Assembly (NCBI RefSeq): GCF_001514205.1
Contig: NZ_KQ948763.1
Coordinates: 809,084 to 873,083 of the forward strand
Direction of reading: 5' to 3'
DNA length: 64,000 nucleotides
DNA from: Streptomyces griseoruber
Lineage (GTDB): Bacteria; Actinomycetota; Actinomycetes; Streptomycetales; Streptomycetaceae
Each line of letters begins with the position of its first letter. The stretch's first letter is position 1. Below, one piece after another: positions 51,300-60,654 of this stretch. Made by a program: the position numbers and the translations under genes. A model generated the notes under the pieces. The model made no database searches, was not told where the DNA came from, and was given only the letters and a program-made list of their open reading frames with translations.

Positions 51300-53618
51300 T
51301 CAAGAGGCGGGCAGCTCACTCCTCACCGTGCGTGCCGCGGCGACCAGGTTCTCCAGGGAAGCCCGGGTCTCGGGCCAGCCGCGGGTCTTCAGCCCGCAGT
51401 CGGGGTTGACCCAGAGACGTTCGGCGGGAATCGCTTCAAGCCCCGCTCGCAGAAGGGCTGCTGCCTCCACCGCGCTCGGTACGCGCGGGGAGTGGATGTC
51501 GTACACGCCCGGCCCCGCCTCGCGCGGGTAGCCGTGCGCGGCGAGTTCGCGGGCGACCTGCATGTGAGAGCGGGCGGCCTCCAGGCTGATGACGTCGGCG
51601 TCGAGGTCGTCGATGGCCTGGACGATGTCACCGAACTCGGCGTAGCACATATGGGTGTGGATCTGGGTGTCCGGTCGTACGCCGCCGGTGGTGAGCCGGA
51701 ACGCCTCCGTGGCCCACATGAGATACGCCGGACGGTCGGCGGCCCGGAGGGGGAGCGTCTCGCGCAGTGCGGGCTCGTCCACCTGGATGACTGAAGTCCC
51801 GGCCGCCTCAAGGTCGTTGACCTCGTCGCGCAGGGCGAGGGCGACCTGGCGGGCGGTGTCGCCGAGGGGCTGGTCGTCGCGGACGAAGGACCAGGCGAGC
51901 ATGGTGACCGGGCCGGTGAGCATGCCCTTGACCGGCTTCGGGGTGAGGGACTGGGCATACGTCGTCCAGCGCACCGTCATCGCTTCGGGACGAGAGATGT
52001 CGCCGGCCAGGATCGGCGGGCGTACGTAGCGGGTGCCGTAGGACTGCACCCAGCCGTGCTGGGTGGCGAGGTAGCCGGTGAGCTGCTCGGCGAAGTACTG
52101 GACCATGTCGTTGCGTTCTGGCTCGCCGTGCACCAGGACGTCCAGGCCCGCCTTCTCCTGAAAGGAGATCACTTCGCCGATCTCCGCCCGGATGCGCTCC
52201 TCATAGCCGGCCGTGTCGATCCGCCCGGCACGCAGGTCGGCACGGGCGGTGCGCAGTTCGCCGGTCTGCGGGAACGAGCCGATGGTGGTCGTGGGTAGCA
52301 ACGGCAGCTGCAGATGGGCGCGTTGGGCGGCGGCACGCCCCCGGTACGGGTGGGATCGGCGGCTGTCGTACGCGGTGATCGTCGCCGCCCGTGCGCGGAC
52401 GGCAGGGTCGTGGGTGATCGGTGAACTCGCCCGGGAGGCCAGGTCGGCGCGGTTGGCGGCCAGTTCCGCCGTGATCGCGTCGGTGCCCTGGGTGAGGCCC
52501 CTGGCGAGGGTGACGATCTCGCTGGTCTTCTGCTTCGCGAAGGCCAGCCAGCGCAGGATCTGCGGGTCGATGTCCTTCTCGGCGGCGGCGTCCAGCGGCA
52601 CGTGCAGAAGGGAGCAGGAGGCGGCCACGTCGACGCGGTCAGCGAGCCCGAGGAGGGTGCCGAGGGTGGACAGGGACTTATGAAGGTCGTTGATCCAGAT
52701 GTTGCGGCCGTTGACCACACCGGCGACCAGGCGCTTGCCGGGCAGGCCGCCCACCGCCGCCAGGGCGTCCAGGTTGGCGGCGGCCGCCTCGGTGAAGTCC
52801 AGCGCGAGACCCTCGACCGGCGCCTTCGCCAGCACCGGCAGGGCGTCGCCGATCCGGTCGAAGTACGAGGCCACCAGCAGCTTCGGCCGGTCGGTCAGGG
52901 CGCCGAGATCGCGGTAGGCGCGTGTCGCGGCGTTCAGTTCGGCCGGGGTGCGGTCCTGGACGAGGGCGGCCTCGTCCAGCTGCACCCACTCGGCACCGGC
53001 GGCGCGCAGGTCGGCGAGCAATTCGGCGTACACAGGGAGCAGCCGGTCCAGGAGGGTGAGCGGCTCGAAGTCCGCGGCCACGCCGGGCGCGGGCTTGGCG
53101 AGCAGGAGGTACGTGACAGATCCGACCAGTACGGGCCGGGCGGTCAGGCCCTGGGACAGGGCCTCCTTCAGCTCGGAGACCTGCTTGGCGGGGTCGGCCG
53201 TGAAGACGGTGTCCGGGCCCAGCTCGGGGACCAGGTAGTGGTAGTTGGTGTCGAACCACTTGGTCATCTCCAGTGGAGCGACCTCCTGGGTCCCGCGGGC
53301 CATCGCGAAGTAACCGTCCGTAGCGTCGGCGTCCACGGCGGCGCGGTGCCGGTCGGGAATCGCGCCGACCATCACGGTGGTGTCGAGGACGTGGTCGTAG
53401 TACGAGAAGTCACCGGTGGGCACCTCGTGGATGCCGGCCTCGGCGAGCTGCTGCCAGTTGCTCCGGCGGAGCTCGGCGGCGGTTGCGTGGAGGGCGTCGG
53501 CGGTGACGCGGCCCTTCCAGTAGCCCTCGATGGCCTTCTTCAGTTCCCGGTTCTGGCCCTGGCGGGGGTAGCCGTACACGGTGGCCCGTGCTGCCGCGGC
53601 TGCGGACTTTGCTGTCAC
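51300..53618 (-). CDS. metE: Cobalamin-independent methionine synthase
   Basis: Transfers the methyl group of 5-methyltetrahydropteroyltri-glutamate to homocysteine without B12. The 772-residue protein has the duplicated barrel layout; the C-terminal catalytic half carries zinc ligands in [13 protein letters not shown] and [11 protein letters not shown], and [11 protein letters not shown]. The GTG at 53618 follows AAGGAG by 6 nt. A cobalamin riboswitch lies in the leader at about 53800-54010, so the gene is off when B12 is available, when the B12-dependent enzyme MetH can serve. Next to cbtBA this makes a B12-response neighbourhood. Confidence 0.96.
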
Positions 53619-53799
53619 GGAGATCTCCTTCGCGAGATGAATCCCTGAGATCCCGGGGACGGGACGAGAGCGCGAAGGGAACGACGAACCGGACGGCCAC
53701 GACCCCGCGCGGCATGGGCACGGTCGCTCCGTCTGGTGTGTACGCCGACCCGCCCTCGAGGTCACCGGGATGTCCGCGCACGGAACGGTCCGCACGCGG
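53619..53799 (-). promoter_or_regulatory. metE leader between riboswitch and start codon
   Basis: About 180 nt of untranslated leader lie between the aptamer and the metE ribosome site AAGGAG. The expression platform, either sequestering the ribosome site or terminating, must be within it; no single dominant hairpin was obvious by eye. Confidence 0.5.
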
Positions 53800-54010
53800 G
53801 CAGTTGGCAGGTCTTCGGACTCGCGGGCACGCCCTCCTCGGAGGACACCTACTGGCCGTCGCTTCCCGGGCCCGGTACGTCGGACCCAGTGCTTTATGAC
53901 GGCGGTCGTTCCCGCTCACCGCTGCGGGGCAGTCCCGGATTCCCACCGGGTTCCCTCTTGCGACGCGCCTGCCTGGCGGGCAGGGCGAACCAGCTGCAAG
54001 GCCAGCGTAC
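53800..54010 (-). ncRNA. Cobalamin riboswitch upstream of metE
   Basis: Read on the minus strand: AGAGGGAACCCGGTGGGAAT, then CCGGGACTGCCCCGCAGCGG and TGAGCGGGAACGACC, ending with GCGAGTCCGAAGACCTGCC. These are the conserved blocks of the classic cobalamin aptamer, including the B12 box. It is a fuller version than the one before cbtB. Confidence 0.95.
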
Positions 54011-55254: not shown

Positions 55255-55893
55255 TCACAGGGGTTGTGGTGCGAGGGCGCGGGCGGGGTGGCGGGGGCCC
55301 AGGAAGACCACGATTCCCTCGCCGTCGGGGGAGGGGTGGGTGGCCTGGGCCCAGCCGCGGCCCCGGTAGAAGGACATCGCCCGCGTCGACCGCACCGAAG
55401 TCAGCAGCCAGGAGCGGCCGTCGGGGGCGTCCTCGGTGACCGCGGCCAGCAACTCGCCCGCGAGACCGGTGCCGCGGGCCCCGGGGAGGACGGCGAGTTC
55501 GTCGATCTCCCGGGCCCCGCACAGCCATGCGGCGGTGCGCTCGGGACCCAGCCCCGCAGCAGCCTGCGGATAGCAGCGGTCGGTGGGGAAGGGGGCCGGC
55601 GTGGTCCAGGCCGTCGCGAAGCCGAGCAGGTCGGATCCGGCGAAGGCGAGCACCGCGATGAAACCGGGGCGCCGCACGTTCACCGGAAGCCGCTCCCCGA
55701 ACTCGACGGCCTTCTCCTCGTCCTCGTTCCAGGGCGGCGCGCAGAAGGCGTCGGCGTACACGGAGCGCAGGGCAGTGGTGTGGGCGAGCAGGTCGCCGTC
55801 TCTGAAGACGCGGACGGCGGGGACGGCGGGGACGGCGGGGACGGCGGGGACGGCGGGAATTGCCGGGCTGACGGGGCTGTCCGGGATGTCCAT
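55255..55893 (-). CDS. GNAT-family N-acetyltransferase with Ala-Val-Pro repeat
   Basis: A 212-residue acetyltransferase. The N-terminus IPAVPAVPAVPAVPAV (about 10-25) is encoded by a 9-bp tandem repeat and is likely disordered. The GNAT fold follows, with the acetyl-CoA-binding region IDELAVLPGARGTGLAGEL (about 135-153) and SFYRGRGWAQ near the end. The ATG shares one base with the tsaD stop (TGATG), so it is translationally coupled. A RimI-like enzyme beside TsaD is a common pairing, but the target protein or small molecule is unknown. Confidence 0.87.
   Translation of the reverse strand: MDIPDSPVSPAIPAVPAVPAVPAVPAVRVFRDGDLLAHTTALRSVYADAFCAPPWNEDEEKAVEFGERLPVNVRRPGFIAVLAFAGSDLLGFATAWTTPAPFPTDRCYPQAAAGLGPERTAAWLCGAREIDELAVLPGARGTGLAGELLAAVTEDAPDGRSWLLTSVRSTRAMSFYRGRGWAQATHPSPDGEGIVVFLGPRHPARALAPQPL
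55812..55856. repeat. Five tandem 9-bp units encoding Ala-Val-Pro
   Basis: Five exact copies of GGACGGCGG lie inside the acetyltransferase gene. The unit is three codons long, so copy-number change keeps the frame. Confidence 0.92.
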
Positions 55894-56945
55894 CAGGCCG
55901 CCACCGCCCCGGCCGTCGAGACGGGGTTGAGGGAGGCGCACTCCAGCGGCGCCGACGGGTCGATGGACACGTCCAGCGGCGCCGGCTCCGCCCCGGCGCG
56001 GACCAACAGGTCGCCCACGGCGGCGATCATCGCGCCGTTGTCCGTGCACAACTTCAGTGGCGGCACGCGCAGTTCGATCCCGGCCGCCCGGCACCGCTCC
56101 TCGGCCAGCCGCCGCACCCGCGAGTTGGCGGCGACCCCGCCGACCACGACCAGCGTCCCTACGCCGTGCTCGGCGCAGGCCGCGACCGCTTTGCGGGTCA
56201 GTACGTCGGCCACCGCCTCCTGGAGCGAGGCCGCCCCGTCCGCCACCGGCAGCTCACGGCCCGCGTGACCCTCGGCCCAGCGCGCGGCGGCGGTCTTCAG
56301 CCCCGAGAAGGAGAAGTCGTACGACCCCGGCAGCGGGCGGGGGAAGGCGACGGCGCCCGGATCTCCGGCCCGCGCCACCCGGTCGATGGCCGGGCCCCCG
56401 GGATACGGCAGCCCGAAGACCCGCGCGACCTTGTCGAAGCACTCCCCAGCGGCGTCGTCGAGGGTGTCGCCGAGGTGGACTATCGGATCCCGGACCATGT
56501 CGCGGACGAGGAGGAGCGAGGTGTGGCCGCCGGAGACGATCAGCACCATGCACGGGTCCGGCAGCGGCCCGTGCTCCAGGGTGTCGGCGGCGACGTGCCC
56601 CGCGAGGTGGTGGACGCCGTACAGCGGGACCCCCAGGGCGTAGGCGAGGCCCTTCGCCCCCGCCAGGCCCACCTGGAGCGCGCCCGACAGTCCGGGCCCG
56701 GTGGTCACGGCGACGGCGCCGATGTCGGACAGCCGTCGCCCGGCCTCCTCCAGCGCCTGCCGGACCACCGGCCGCAGGGCCTGGAGGTGGGCCCGGGAGG
56801 CGATCTCGGGCACGACACCGCCGTAACGGGCGTGCTCGTCCATGCTCGACGCCAGCGCGTGGCCGAGCAGCCGCCCGTCCCGGACCAGGCCCGCGCCGGT
56901 CTCGTCGCAGGACGACTCGATCCCGAGCACGATCGGTGAGCTCAC
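55893..56945 (-). CDS. tsaD: TsaD-family tRNA threonylcarbamoyltransferase, probable paralogue
   Basis: TsaD transfers the threonylcarbamoyl group to A37 of ANN-decoding tRNAs and uses a metal site. The 350-residue protein has [10 protein letters not shown] (near the N-terminus), the metal-binding [29 protein letters not shown] and [11 protein letters not shown]. It differs noticeably from the usual Streptomyces TsaD as I recall it (for example NHLASH and a His-rich tail), and no tsaB/tsaE neighbours are present, so it is probably a second copy. The GTG at 56945 follows AGAGG by 7 nt. A Nur-like box lies 29 nt upstream, suggesting metal-dependent control. Confidence 0.88.
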
Positions 56946-56973
56946 GCCTCCACCTCTTCCTGCATAGTCAATG

Positions 56974-56996
56974 TTATTGCGAATAGTGTGCAATAA
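56974..56996. promoter_or_regulatory. Nur-box-like operator TTATTGC-N9-GCAATAA
   Basis: Perfect 7-bp arms around 9 nt. Read as TTGCGA-ATAGT-GTGCAA it matches the Streptomyces Nur consensus tTGCaa-N5-ttGCAA. It sits just upstream of tsaD on the minus strand and of the cobM stump on the plus strand. Confidence 0.7.
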
Positions 56997-57008: not shown

Positions 57009-57169
57009 GTGTACCCGAGCACGGAAACACGCTCGACGAGATCGCCGGGAAGGCGAAGGGGGCCGGGGTCCTGCGGACCGCGGTGATCATGGTGGGGCGG
57101 ACGCTGGGGGCGGAGAAGTTCCGGGACAGACACCTGTACACGGCGAAGCGGGAGAGGCATGTCTGCTGA
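57009..57169 (+). pseudogene. cobM: C-terminal stump of cobM (precorrin-4 C11-methyltransferase)
   Basis: The plus frame [20 protein letters not shown] followed by [19 protein letters not shown] and ERHVC-stop is the typical C-terminal end of CobM. About 50 residues remain; the methyltransferase body is gone, replaced upstream by the Nur-like box and tsaD. The stump overlaps the start of the next acetyltransferase gene by 11 nt. Confidence 0.78.
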
Positions 57170-57611
57170 CACACTGATCAGAAGGGCCGTCGCGGAGGAC
57201 GCCGACCGGCTCACCGACATGGTCCAGGCGTCCGGTGCCTACCAGGGCGCGTACGCCTCGATCATCTCCGGCTACCGGGTCGGCCCGGACTACCTTGCAC
57301 GCCACTCGGTGTTCCTCGCCGAGGACCCGGACGGGCGCCTGCTCGGCTTCTACTCACTGATCCTGGAACCGCCGGAGCTGGACCTGGCGTTCGTCGCGGA
57401 CGATCTCCAGGGCAGGGGCGTCGGGCGGCTCCTCGTGGAGCACGTGCTCGGTCAGGCCCGCGCGGCCGGCCTGACCGGAGTGCGTGTGGTGTCCCATCCG
57501 CCGGCGGAGGACTTCTACCGCCGCATGGGCGCCGAGCGCGTGGGGACGGTCGGTCCGGTGCCGCCGAAGGTCACGTGGGAACGCCCGGAGTTGTGGTTCA
57601 CCGTCCGCTGA
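57159..57611 (+). CDS. GNAT-family N-acetyltransferase
   Basis: A 150-residue single-domain acetyltransferase. The acetyl-CoA-binding segment is DLQGRGVGRLLVEHVLGQA (about 82-100) and the C-terminal strand region is DFYRRMGAERVG. The ATG at 57159 lies inside the cobM stump, with GGGAGAGG just before it. It may once have been coupled to intact cobM. Substrate unknown. Confidence 0.88.
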   Translation: MSADTLIRRAVAEDADRLTDMVQASGAYQGAYASIISGYRVGPDYLARHSVFLAEDPDGRLLGFYSLILEPPELDLAFVADDLQGRGVGRLLVEHVLGQARAAGLTGVRVVSHPPAEDFYRRMGAERVGTVGPVPPKVTWERPELWFTVR

Positions 57612-57958
57612 GCGGCCCTGCCGCTGTGCTGCGCCCCACCACTGTCCCCGCCCGGTCGATGCGGACCAGGTCGACCGCGACCGGCGCGCCCCGCAGCACG
57701 GCGAGGGCCTGGTCCCGTGCCACCGTCCGGGCTGCCTGTGGTCGTGGTCCGGCGGCCCCCGGTGCCCGATGGCGTTCCGGCAGTGGGTGATCCGGAGTCG
57801 GCGGCACGGTGGATCAGTGACCTGTGCATTTTCCCGGTCGCTGGCTGAATCCTGACGCGGGCTTTGCCGCATGCAGCTTGTACCTGCAACCAATGCGCAG
57901 AAACCTTGAAGGCGCGGCTGAAAACAGCCGCTCGCCGAGAAGTAAGGCCCACGTCCCC
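57612..57958. other. Leader region of the NiCoT gene
   Basis: No confident gene. The left part (57,612-57,800) has good codon bias on the minus strand, in a frame ending DLVRIDRAGTVVGRS, which may be another remnant I cannot identify. The right part holds the inverted repeat TGCAG-N7-CTGCA at 57872-57888 and a 7-bp hairpin with an AAAA loop at 57914-57931. Confidence 0.5.
57872..57888 (+). promoter_or_regulatory. Inverted repeat TGCAG-N7-CTGCA upstream of NiCoT gene
   Basis: Symmetric arms with a 7-nt spacer, 71 nt before the start codon. It recalls a metal-regulator site, but the TGC-to-GCA spacing is 11 rather than the 9 of the two Nur-like boxes nearby. Confidence 0.4.
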
Positions 57959-59092
57959 ATGACCACCGCTCCCGATTCCGTCCGGCAGCGCCTGCGTACC
58001 TCCATGACCCGAAAGGAGTGGGCGAGCGTCGGCGGGATGGCCGCCTTCATCCTGGCGCTGCACGTCATCGGCTGGTTCACGCTCGTCGTGATCGTCGCCC
58101 CCGAGCACTACAGCCTCGGCACCAAGACCTTCGGCATCGGCATCGGCGTCACCGCCTACACGCTCGGCATGCGGCACGCGTTCGACGCCGACCACATCGC
58201 CGCCATCGACAACACCACCCGGAAGCTGATGAGCGAGGGCCAGCGCCCGCTGTCCGTCGGCTTCTGGTTCTCCCTGGGCCACTCGTCGATCGTCTTCGCG
58301 CTCGCCTTCCTGCTCTCCCTCGGTGTCAAGGCGCTGGCAGGACCGGTCGAGAACGACGACTCCACCCTCCACAGCGTCACCGGCTGGATCGGGACGACCG
58401 TCTCCGGGACCTTCCTCTACGTCATTGCGATCATCAACCTGGTGATCATGGTAGGCATCTGGAAGGTCTTCAAGGAGATGCGCACCGGCCGCTTCGACGA
58501 GGCCGCCCTGGAGGAACAGCTGAACAACCGCGGCTTCATGAACCGCATCCTCGGCCGTCTGATGAAGTCGATCACCAAGCCGTGGCAGATGTACCCCCTG
58601 GGCCTGCTCTTCGGCCTCGGCTTCGACACCGCGACCGAGATCGCGCTGCTCGTCCTCGCCGGTTCGGGCGCGGCCTCCGGGCTGCCCTGGTACGCGATCC
58701 TGTGCCTGCCGATCCTGTTCGCGGCCGGCATGTCGCTTCTGGACACCATCGATGGCTCGTTCATGAACTTTGCCTACGGCTGGGCCTTCTCCAAGCCGGT
58801 CCGCAAGGTCTACTACAACCTCACCATCACCGGCCTGTCCGTCGCCGTCGCCCTCATCATCGGCACGGTCGAACTGCTGGGCCTGGTCGCCGAGAAGGCC
58901 GACCTGCACGGCCCCTTCTGGGACTGGGTCTCCGGCCTGGATCTCAACATCATCGGTTACGTCATCGTCGGGCTGTTCTTCGCGACCTGGGCCGTGGCCC
59001 TGCTTGTGTGGAAGGTCGGCCGGATCGAGGAGAAGTGGACGGCGGGGCTGGCTCAACCCGCCCCGGCGTCGGCCTCGGCTGAGCAGGGCTGA
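57959..59092 (+). CDS. NiCoT-family nickel/cobalt permease
   Basis: A 377-residue, about eight-helix secondary transporter of the HoxN/NixA family. The signature RHAFDADHIAAIDNTTR (H-x4-DH) in helix II binds the metal. Further family motifs are GFWFSLGHSSIV and LGFDTATEIALL. I use the ATG at 57959 with AAGG upstream; an extension to 57824 is unlikely. It would import Ni2+ or Co2+ for urease, hydrogenase, nickel superoxide dismutase or B12. The gene is flanked by cobM and cobJ stumps and by two Nur-like boxes. Confidence 0.93.
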   Translation: MTTAPDSVRQRLRTSMTRKEWASVGGMAAFILALHVIGWFTLVVIVAPEHYSLGTKTFGIGIGVTAYTLGMRHAFDADHIAAIDNTTRKLMSEGQRPLSVGFWFSLGHSSIVFALAFLLSLGVKALAGPVENDDSTLHSVTGWIGTTVSGTFLYVIAIINLVIMVGIWKVFKEMRTGRFDEAALEEQLNNRGFMNRILGRLMKSITKPWQMYPLGLLFGLGFDTATEIALLVLAGSGAASGLPWYAILCLPILFAAGMSLLDTIDGSFMNFAYGWAFSKPVRKVYYNLTITGLSVAVALIIGTVELLGLVAEKADLHGPFWDWVSGLDLNIIGYVIVGLFFATWAVALLVWKVGRIEEKWTAGLAQPAPASASAEQG

Positions 59093-59326: not shown

Positions 59327-59349
59327 CTATTGCATATATTTTGCAATAG
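59327..59349. promoter_or_regulatory. Nur-box-like operator CTATTGC-N9-GCAATAG
   Basis: Perfect 7-bp arms around 9 nt; read as TTGCAT-ATATT-TTGCAA it fits the tTGCaa-N5-ttGCAA Nur consensus closely. A further half-site GTATTGCAAG follows at about 59355. It lies in a striking AT-rich pocket upstream of the AmiC/UrtA-like gene and of the cobJ stump. Confidence 0.75.
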
Positions 59350-59538: not shown

Positions 59539-60654
59539 ATGCACCGGCCGCTCAGCCTCGCCCCCGAGTGGTTCACGGCCGACGACTCGGCCCTGAACGT
59601 CGCTTTCGTGTACCCGATGCAGGGGCCTGCCGGCATCTTCGGTCCGGCCTGCGAGGCGTGCGCGAGGCTGGCGGCCGAGGAGATCAACAGGGCCGGCGGT
59701 GTGCTCGGCAAGGAACTCCGGCTGCTGGAGGTCGACGGCGGCGCCGACCCCCAGGAGGTCGCCGAGCACGTCGAGGCCCTGGTGGCGACGGGTGCGGTGC
59801 AAGGTGTCACCGGCTGGCACATATCCTCGGTCCGGCAGGCGGTGGCGCCCCGTGTCGCGCACCTGGTGCCGTACGTCTACACGGCCCTGTACGAGGGCGG
59901 GGAGCGCACGGACGGTGTCTTCATGACCAGTGAGACCCCCGACTGGCAGCTGCTGCCCGCCATGCGGCTCCTGGCCGACACACGGCGGGTGCGGCGATGG
60001 TTCGTCGTCGGCAACAACTACGTCTGGCCGCGGAGCACGGCCCGGGCGGCTCGCCGTTACGCCCGAGCGTGCGGGGGTGGGCGGGTCTGCGGTGAGGCGT
60101 ACCTCCCGCTGGGCGCCGAGGACTTCCGTGACGTGTTGCGGCGCATCGAGCACGCGGACGCGGACGGCGTGCTGATGCTGCTGGTCGGCAGTGACGCCGT
60201 CCGTTTCAACCGGGCCTTCGCCGCCTCCGGCCTCGACCGGCGATGCCTCAGGCTGAGCACGCTCATGGACGAGAACATGCTGATGGCCAGCGGTCCGGAG
60301 GCGACGGGTGACCTCTTCAGCACGGCCGGGTTCTTCGCCTCGCTGGCCAACCAGGACACCCTGGACTTCCACGGCCAGTACGCCGACCGCTTCGGCATCG
60401 AGGCTCCGGCCCCCGGAAGCCTCGGCGAATCCTGTTACGAGGGCGTGCTGCTGCTCGCGTCACTCATCGAGCGGGCCCGCACCCTGGATGTCTCCGCGAT
60501 CTCGGCGGCGGCCGAAACCGTCTCCTACGAAGGGCCGCGCGGTCTGCTCCACCTCCGCGACCGGCATGTGCGCCAGCGCATCTACCTGGCGGAGGCGGAC
60601 GGACTCGACTTCAACGTGCTAGCCCAGCTCCGGGCTCCGCACGACCTCGTGTGA
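59539..60654 (+). CDS. Cytosolic AmiC/FmdD/UrtA-like substrate-binding protein
   Basis: A 371-residue periplasmic-binding-fold protein (Peripla_BP_5 type). LNVAFVYPMQGPAGIFGPACE, EEINRAGGVLGKELRL and WFVVGNNYVWPRSTARAARRY match urea/short-amide binders. There is no signal peptide or lipobox, which resembles AmiC, the cytosolic amide sensor that controls amidase expression in Pseudomonas. It therefore may be a regulator or sensor rather than a transporter subunit. It lies upstream of a urtABC set. Its last 36 nt overlap the convergent MarR gene. Confidence 0.82.
   Translation: MHRPLSLAPEWFTADDSALNVAFVYPMQGPAGIFGPACEACARLAAEEINRAGGVLGKELRLLEVDGGADPQEVAEHVEALVATGAVQGVTGWHISSVRQAVAPRVAHLVPYVYTALYEGGERTDGVFMTSETPDWQLLPAMRLLADTRRVRRWFVVGNNYVWPRSTARAARRYARACGGGRVCGEAYLPLGAEDFRDVLRRIEHADADGVLMLLVGSDAVRFNRAFAASGLDRRCLRLSTLMDENMLMASGPEATGDLFSTAGFFASLANQDTLDFHGQYADRFGIEAPAPGSLGESCYEGVLLLASLIERARTLDVSAISAAAETVSYEGPRGLLHLRDRHVRQRIYLAEADGLDFNVLAQLRAPHDLV

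Follow-up and report, generated by a model that had tools for sequence, protein, structure and literature searches.

Our comparative analysis indicated that tsaD2, a second gene for the t6A transferase TsaD in the window (the whole 64,000-nucleotide stretch analyzed, from a 10.2-Mb genome that, among named relatives, is closest to Streptomyces at this locus), is probably a member of the Nur regulon, encoding a functional TsaD that would be induced by nickel scarcity and could stand in for the canonical copy, TsaD1. In the model that we propose, nickel-loaded Nur would sit on a box over the promoter and silence tsaD2 together with the genes that follow it; under nickel shortage, Nur would leave the box, and TsaD2 would be made alongside the iron-type superoxide dismutase (SOD) and the nickel importers. 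As a complete t6A transferase, TsaD2 would join the existing TsaB, TsaE, and TsaC and be able to replace TsaD1, and, in a subset of species, the tsaD2 unit would also express a second alanyl-tRNA synthetase (AlaRS2).

The features of the locus are compiled in Table 1. The tsaD2 product scored 397.1 bits against the NCBIfam model TIGR03723 (cut-off, 296.1), which places it within this equivalog. Its likely start is the GTG at 56945, preceded by GGAAGAGGTGGAGG; an alternative TTG start from the open reading frame (ORF) listing falls within the box. The first-pass annotation had described the gene behind tsaD2 as a coupled, RimI-like GNAT acetyltransferase. The coupling holds in the window, where the two genes overlap by one base, but the likeness to RimI does not: beyond the general Pfam model, the product matched nothing in NCBIfam at E 0.001 or in the PDB at E 0.01, and BLASTP at E 10 did not link it to the RimI of its own genome. 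Homologues of this GNAT occupy the position behind tsaD2 in only 8 of 49 loci, counting that of the window. The start of this GNAT ORF (55811-55865) carries a PAV repeat, and the alignment with homologues begins only at about residue 26-35. On the other side, the true start of NicT is probably located inside the listed ORF. A cobalamin riboswitch (RF00174, 89.9 bits) was also found at 53789-54009 on the minus strand, immediately before a metE-like ORF (51300-53795).

Table 1. Features around tsaD2, with positions counted from the first letter of the window.
Feature	Position	Strand	Basis
GNAT acetyltransferase gene, not RimI-like	55255..55893	-	passes general Pfam GNAT model PF00583; start shares one base with tsaD2 stop (TGATG)
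tsaD2, second TsaD (t6A transferase), 350 aa, GTG start	55893..56945	-	TIGR03723 above cut-off; reading frame, start region
Nur-type operator before tsaD2	56974..56996	.	core TTGC-N9-GCAA at 56977-56993; pattern and matrix
Another GNAT gene, unrelated to the first and divergent from tsaD2	57159..57611	+	PF13673 and others
NicT nickel transporter ORF	57824..59092	+	NF052500, 606.8 bits (cut-off, 450); PF03824
Second Nur-type operator of the window	59327..59349	.	matrix score 34.5
urtA-like substrate-binding protein gene, behind second box	59539..60654	+	TIGR03407 below its cut-off; PF13458

The earlier suggestion of a second-type TsaD was borne out by the equivalog score and by the rest of the genome: the only other full-length TsaD match (C4:655749-656756) is 64% identical to TsaD2 and lies 0.9 kb from TsaB, in a tsaB-rimI-tsaD unit, which excludes tsaD2 as the sole tsaD gene. 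The phylogeny of the copies agreed, with two trees parting TsaD2 from canonical TsaD; the TsaD2 group received an SH-aLRT of 99 in the first, and the branch separating 24 TsaD2-type from 32 other rows had a support of 100/99 in the second. By its placement in these trees, TsaD2 is a deep lineage, and a recent duplication was ruled out by both. Among 26 further actinobacterial loci examined, rimI adjoins all 16 canonical-type genes and none of the 10 TsaD2-type genes. For reference, the canonical TsaD of S. coelicolor is listed as SCO4752 in PMC4932002.

The box before tsaD2, TTATTGCGAATAGTGTGCAATAA, fits the published Nur consensus tTGCaa-N5-ttGCAA, as quoted in PMC3919588. Its core pattern, TTGC-N9-GCAA, has 29 occurrences across the genome (85 for the control, the same pattern read backwards), and four of these lie within 11 kb around tsaD2. 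One separates tsaD2 from the divergent GNAT and NicT genes, another precedes the urtA-like gene, and a third is flanked by a Fur-family gene and sodF, which encodes an Fe/Mn-SOD. The fourth is located ahead of a NikA-like gene that is followed by permease genes; the matches to NikA and to permeases fall below the NCBIfam cut-offs. The sodF and nik-like genes are situated just outside the window (L033, C1:876,000-881,000). The same box type preceded sodF in 30 of the 30 genomes looked at, and a 23-base matrix was built from one box of each of these promoters. With this matrix, which leans to the published Nur consensus because the sodF box closest to that consensus was chosen, the tsaD2 box scored 33.6, against a 99% level of 4.7 for shuffled upstream sequence. 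When the 200 bases before each tsaD2 locus were scanned with the 99% level as the threshold, 46 of 49 loci exceeded it, the weakest being G177 (14.6); a fiftieth locus, G041, was also boxed (28.0), giving 47 of 50 copies, versus 0 of 21 canonical tsaD upstream regions scored with the same matrix. Named strains with a boxed copy include Streptomyces globisporus, S. microflavus, and Kitasatospora griseola, and the TsaD2 genes of Kitasatospora and of Glycomyces paridis are boxed as well. The Nur-like box of the first-pass annotation thus withstood comparison by consensus, score, and conservation; a chance occurrence was ruled out by the matrix scores and the site positions.

The Nur orthologue of this genome is encoded at C11:70036-70422 (90% to a 3EYY chain segment). 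The Fur-family gene beside sodF was rejected as Nur, being only 35% identical to the Nur segment; this non-Nur gene (L033:13523-14020, minus strand) is divergent from sodF, with Nur-type boxes in between. In S. coelicolor, nickel-bound Nur acts as a repressor of sodF and nikABCDE, as described in PMC7055735, and sodN is controlled inversely, an enzyme replacement at nickel shortage whose logic is the one proposed here for tsaD2 (PMC7055735, PMC3919588). The operator type is the same, and it is carried here by sodF and a nik-like operon next to tsaD2; by these sequence tests, tsaD2 fits the Nur regulon. From this likeness we infer Nur binding and the direction of control. The tsaD2 target differs in being a tRNA-modification enzyme, joined in some species by an alanyl-tRNA synthetase, and not a known nickel enzyme or importer. 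In the open-licence PMC literature, a scope that mostly leaves out subscription papers, we recognized no report of a nickel- or Nur-controlled TsaD.

Counting the genome of the window, 199 genomes of the same genus were compared, and 50 of them hold a TsaD2-type copy at 78-100% identity, with canonical copies among the matches listed at 62-66%. Because the other 149 genomes show no TsaD2-type match among those listed, TsaD1 is unlikely to be strictly nickel-dependent. Three copies are damaged, by an in-frame stop in G130 (C12:132553-133590), a frameshift in G078 (C363), and an altered C-terminal end in G166 (C222); the box is retained in G130 and G166 and missing in G078. This decay, together with the 149 genomes without a match, indicates that tsaD2 is dispensable in many species. 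Among the 26 further actinobacterial loci, the box was absent before 9 of the 10 TsaD2-type genes (for which the TsaD copies covered were matches at E 1e-125 or better), and the tenth, in a genome with two TsaDs (G263), has a weak one (13.6). In Actinomycetospora (G199), which has a Nur-like protein (52%), the sole TsaD is of the TsaD2 type and has no box; Pseudonocardia CNS-139 has two TsaDs, and its TsaD2-like copy is box-less and broken across frames.

Besides G078, the box is missing at only two of the 50 tsaD2 loci, in G113 and G134, a pair of sister genomes by the tree, each 99% complete. No Nur orthologue, sodN, urease alpha, or NicO was found in either, the last two being weak markers of nickel use since NicO occurs in only 6 of 20 genomes examined and urease alpha is also missing in 5 of 23 others; a sodN match is likewise missing in G001 (79% complete) and in G081 and G151 (95%). 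Both sisters have tsaB, rimI, and the usual post-tsaD1 gene in order with no tsaD1 between them (compared with L163 and L173), and no TsaD besides TsaD2 was found when all candidates were scored. They retain sodF, but the box has gone from its promoter as it has from tsaD2. In these genomes, from which the nickel sensor and the nickel-containing SOD (Ni-SOD) are gone, TsaD2 is, by this search, the sole TsaD. Each also has a single AlaRS match, of the AlaRS2 type, and the other 12 AlaRS2 genomes have at least two; AlaRS1 is thus likely absent from the sisters, as judged from the best four candidates per genome. Since G113 and G134 are sisters, the losses of TsaD1, Nur, and Ni-SOD count as one event, and G046 has kept its box with no detectable Nur. 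The earlier view of TsaD2 as a substitute is indirectly supported by its being the sole TsaD in this lineage; the loss of metal motifs that might accompany such a role was not observed.

The HxxxH motif and the Asp of CTDNG, which we take to be the TsaD metal ligands, are present in TsaD2, align with those of 3zet and 6nak, and are conserved in the alignment. These motifs are kept in both TsaD1 and TsaD2, as HxxxH and CxxxH are in both AlaRS types in the rows listed, and a metal-free substitute paralogue was therefore excluded for TsaD2 and AlaRS2 alike. With the usual ligand motifs in both copies, TsaD metal chemistry is not established as the reason for the switch, and a comparison of the TsaD and AlaRS alignments for a residue that would account for the nickel link found none. 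TsaD2 resembles canonical bacterial TsaD in passing the TIGR03723 cut-off and in the alignment of HxxxH and CTDNG with Salmonella TsaD (3zet), and differs in forming a separate lineage, lacking an adjoining rimI, carrying the box, and lacking a His-rich C-terminal tail. In canonical Streptomyces TsaD this tail is conserved, variable in length, and closes in HDHVHE..NLY (e.g., L034:5665-6768 and L163-L182); it was present in 25 of the 26 Streptomyces TsaD1 proteins examined (the exception being G121), and its composition hints at metal handling. The case for this tail as the cause of the switch is weakened by its absence from TsaD1 of Kitasatospora (0 of 3) and Glycomyces (0 of 1), in which TsaD2 nevertheless has the box. 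Separately, His109 was found in 57 of 57 TsaD2 and 0 of 77 other sequences of the first alignment and was discarded as a TsaD2 mark, His also being there in Salmonella TsaD and several other actinobacterial TsaDs.

The more frequent partner of tsaD2 is AlaRS2 rather than the GNAT gene. AlaRS2 scored 786.6 bits against TIGR00344 (cut-off, 457) and occurs in 14 of 199 genomes, 13 of which carry TsaD2 (Fisher p 5e-8, ignoring relatedness); in 12 genomes it is directly behind tsaD2, sometimes with a GNAT gene between. The AlaRS2 gene of G051 is located far away from tsaD2, with a separate site upstream (17.6), and that of G094 lies behind a GNAT gene, with neither tsaD2 nor a site. A cobL-type gene (CbiE and CbiT domains) stands upstream in opposite orientation, with other cobalamin genes, in 13 of 49 tsaD2 loci (L035-L082), and a CDF cation-efflux gene stands behind tsaD2 in at least three (L043, L051, and L052).

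Three other readings of the locus were weighed against a nickel-responsive stand-in. The divergent NicT gene, seen in the window and in G067, raises the prospect that the box serves the nickel-transporter side (GNAT and NicT) and that tsaD2 is a bystander. The genes on the far side of the box differ among tsaD2 loci, and of the 47 sites scoring above 20 in L035-L082 (727,471 bases), 44 lie 49-128 bases before tsaD2, one for each of 44 of the 48 loci besides the window's own, and the remaining 3 beside sodF (L036 and L039). Because the neighbors vary while the position of the box stays, the box goes with tsaD2; service to a neighboring gene only was ruled out, and we regard the bystander reading as extremely improbable. 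Alternatively, TsaD2 could be under Nur control with another job, such as carbamoylating a different tRNA or a protein, and never replace TsaD1. Its depth as a separate lineage unlinked to rimI and the fixed differences from TsaD1 at many alignment columns would suit such a role; against it stand an equivalog score far above the cut-off and the genomes (G113, G134, and Actinomycetospora G199) in which a TsaD2-type protein is the only TsaD found. As t6A is essential, TsaD2 as the sole TsaD must supply an essential function in these three, which makes a separate job improbable in our view.

It is also conceivable that tsaD2 and alaS2 are spare translation enzymes held against an inhibitor of the standard ones, nickel control being incidental. 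Two essential translation enzymes duplicated together, their patchy spread, and residues that show no metal logic are compatible with this, but almost every tsaD2 locus carries the nickel-type operator, and the recurring neighbors among those listed are cobalamin, nickel, sodF, and cation-efflux genes, with no recurring biosynthetic cluster, so that we consider a resistance role very improbable. Returning to the stand-in reading, we infer that TsaD2 has t6A activity, and a physiological reason for exchanging the enzymes can be sketched more tentatively: the His-tailed Streptomyces TsaD1 and the standard AlaRS might employ nickel, or require it, in the living cell, Nur would then shift t6A formation and the charging of tRNA with alanine onto enzymes that need no nickel, in parallel with its effect on superoxide dismutase, and the lineage that abandoned nickel would have kept only these. 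We consider this explanation unlikely.

Substitute paralogues of metalloenzymes under the control of Zur exist, and tsaD2 resembles them in duplicating a housekeeping enzyme that binds metal and in its proposed control by a Fur-family repressor that senses one; it differs in that its operator is nickel-type rather than zinc-type and that TsaD2 keeps the usual metal ligands. Collectively, our comparison suggests a stand-in enzyme that is swapped in at nickel scarcity in some Streptomyces. If this is true, metal-controlled enzyme substitution would reach beyond oxidative defense into tRNA modification, with a nickel sensor in control, and a possible nickel link of TsaD or AlaRS would become a directly testable question.
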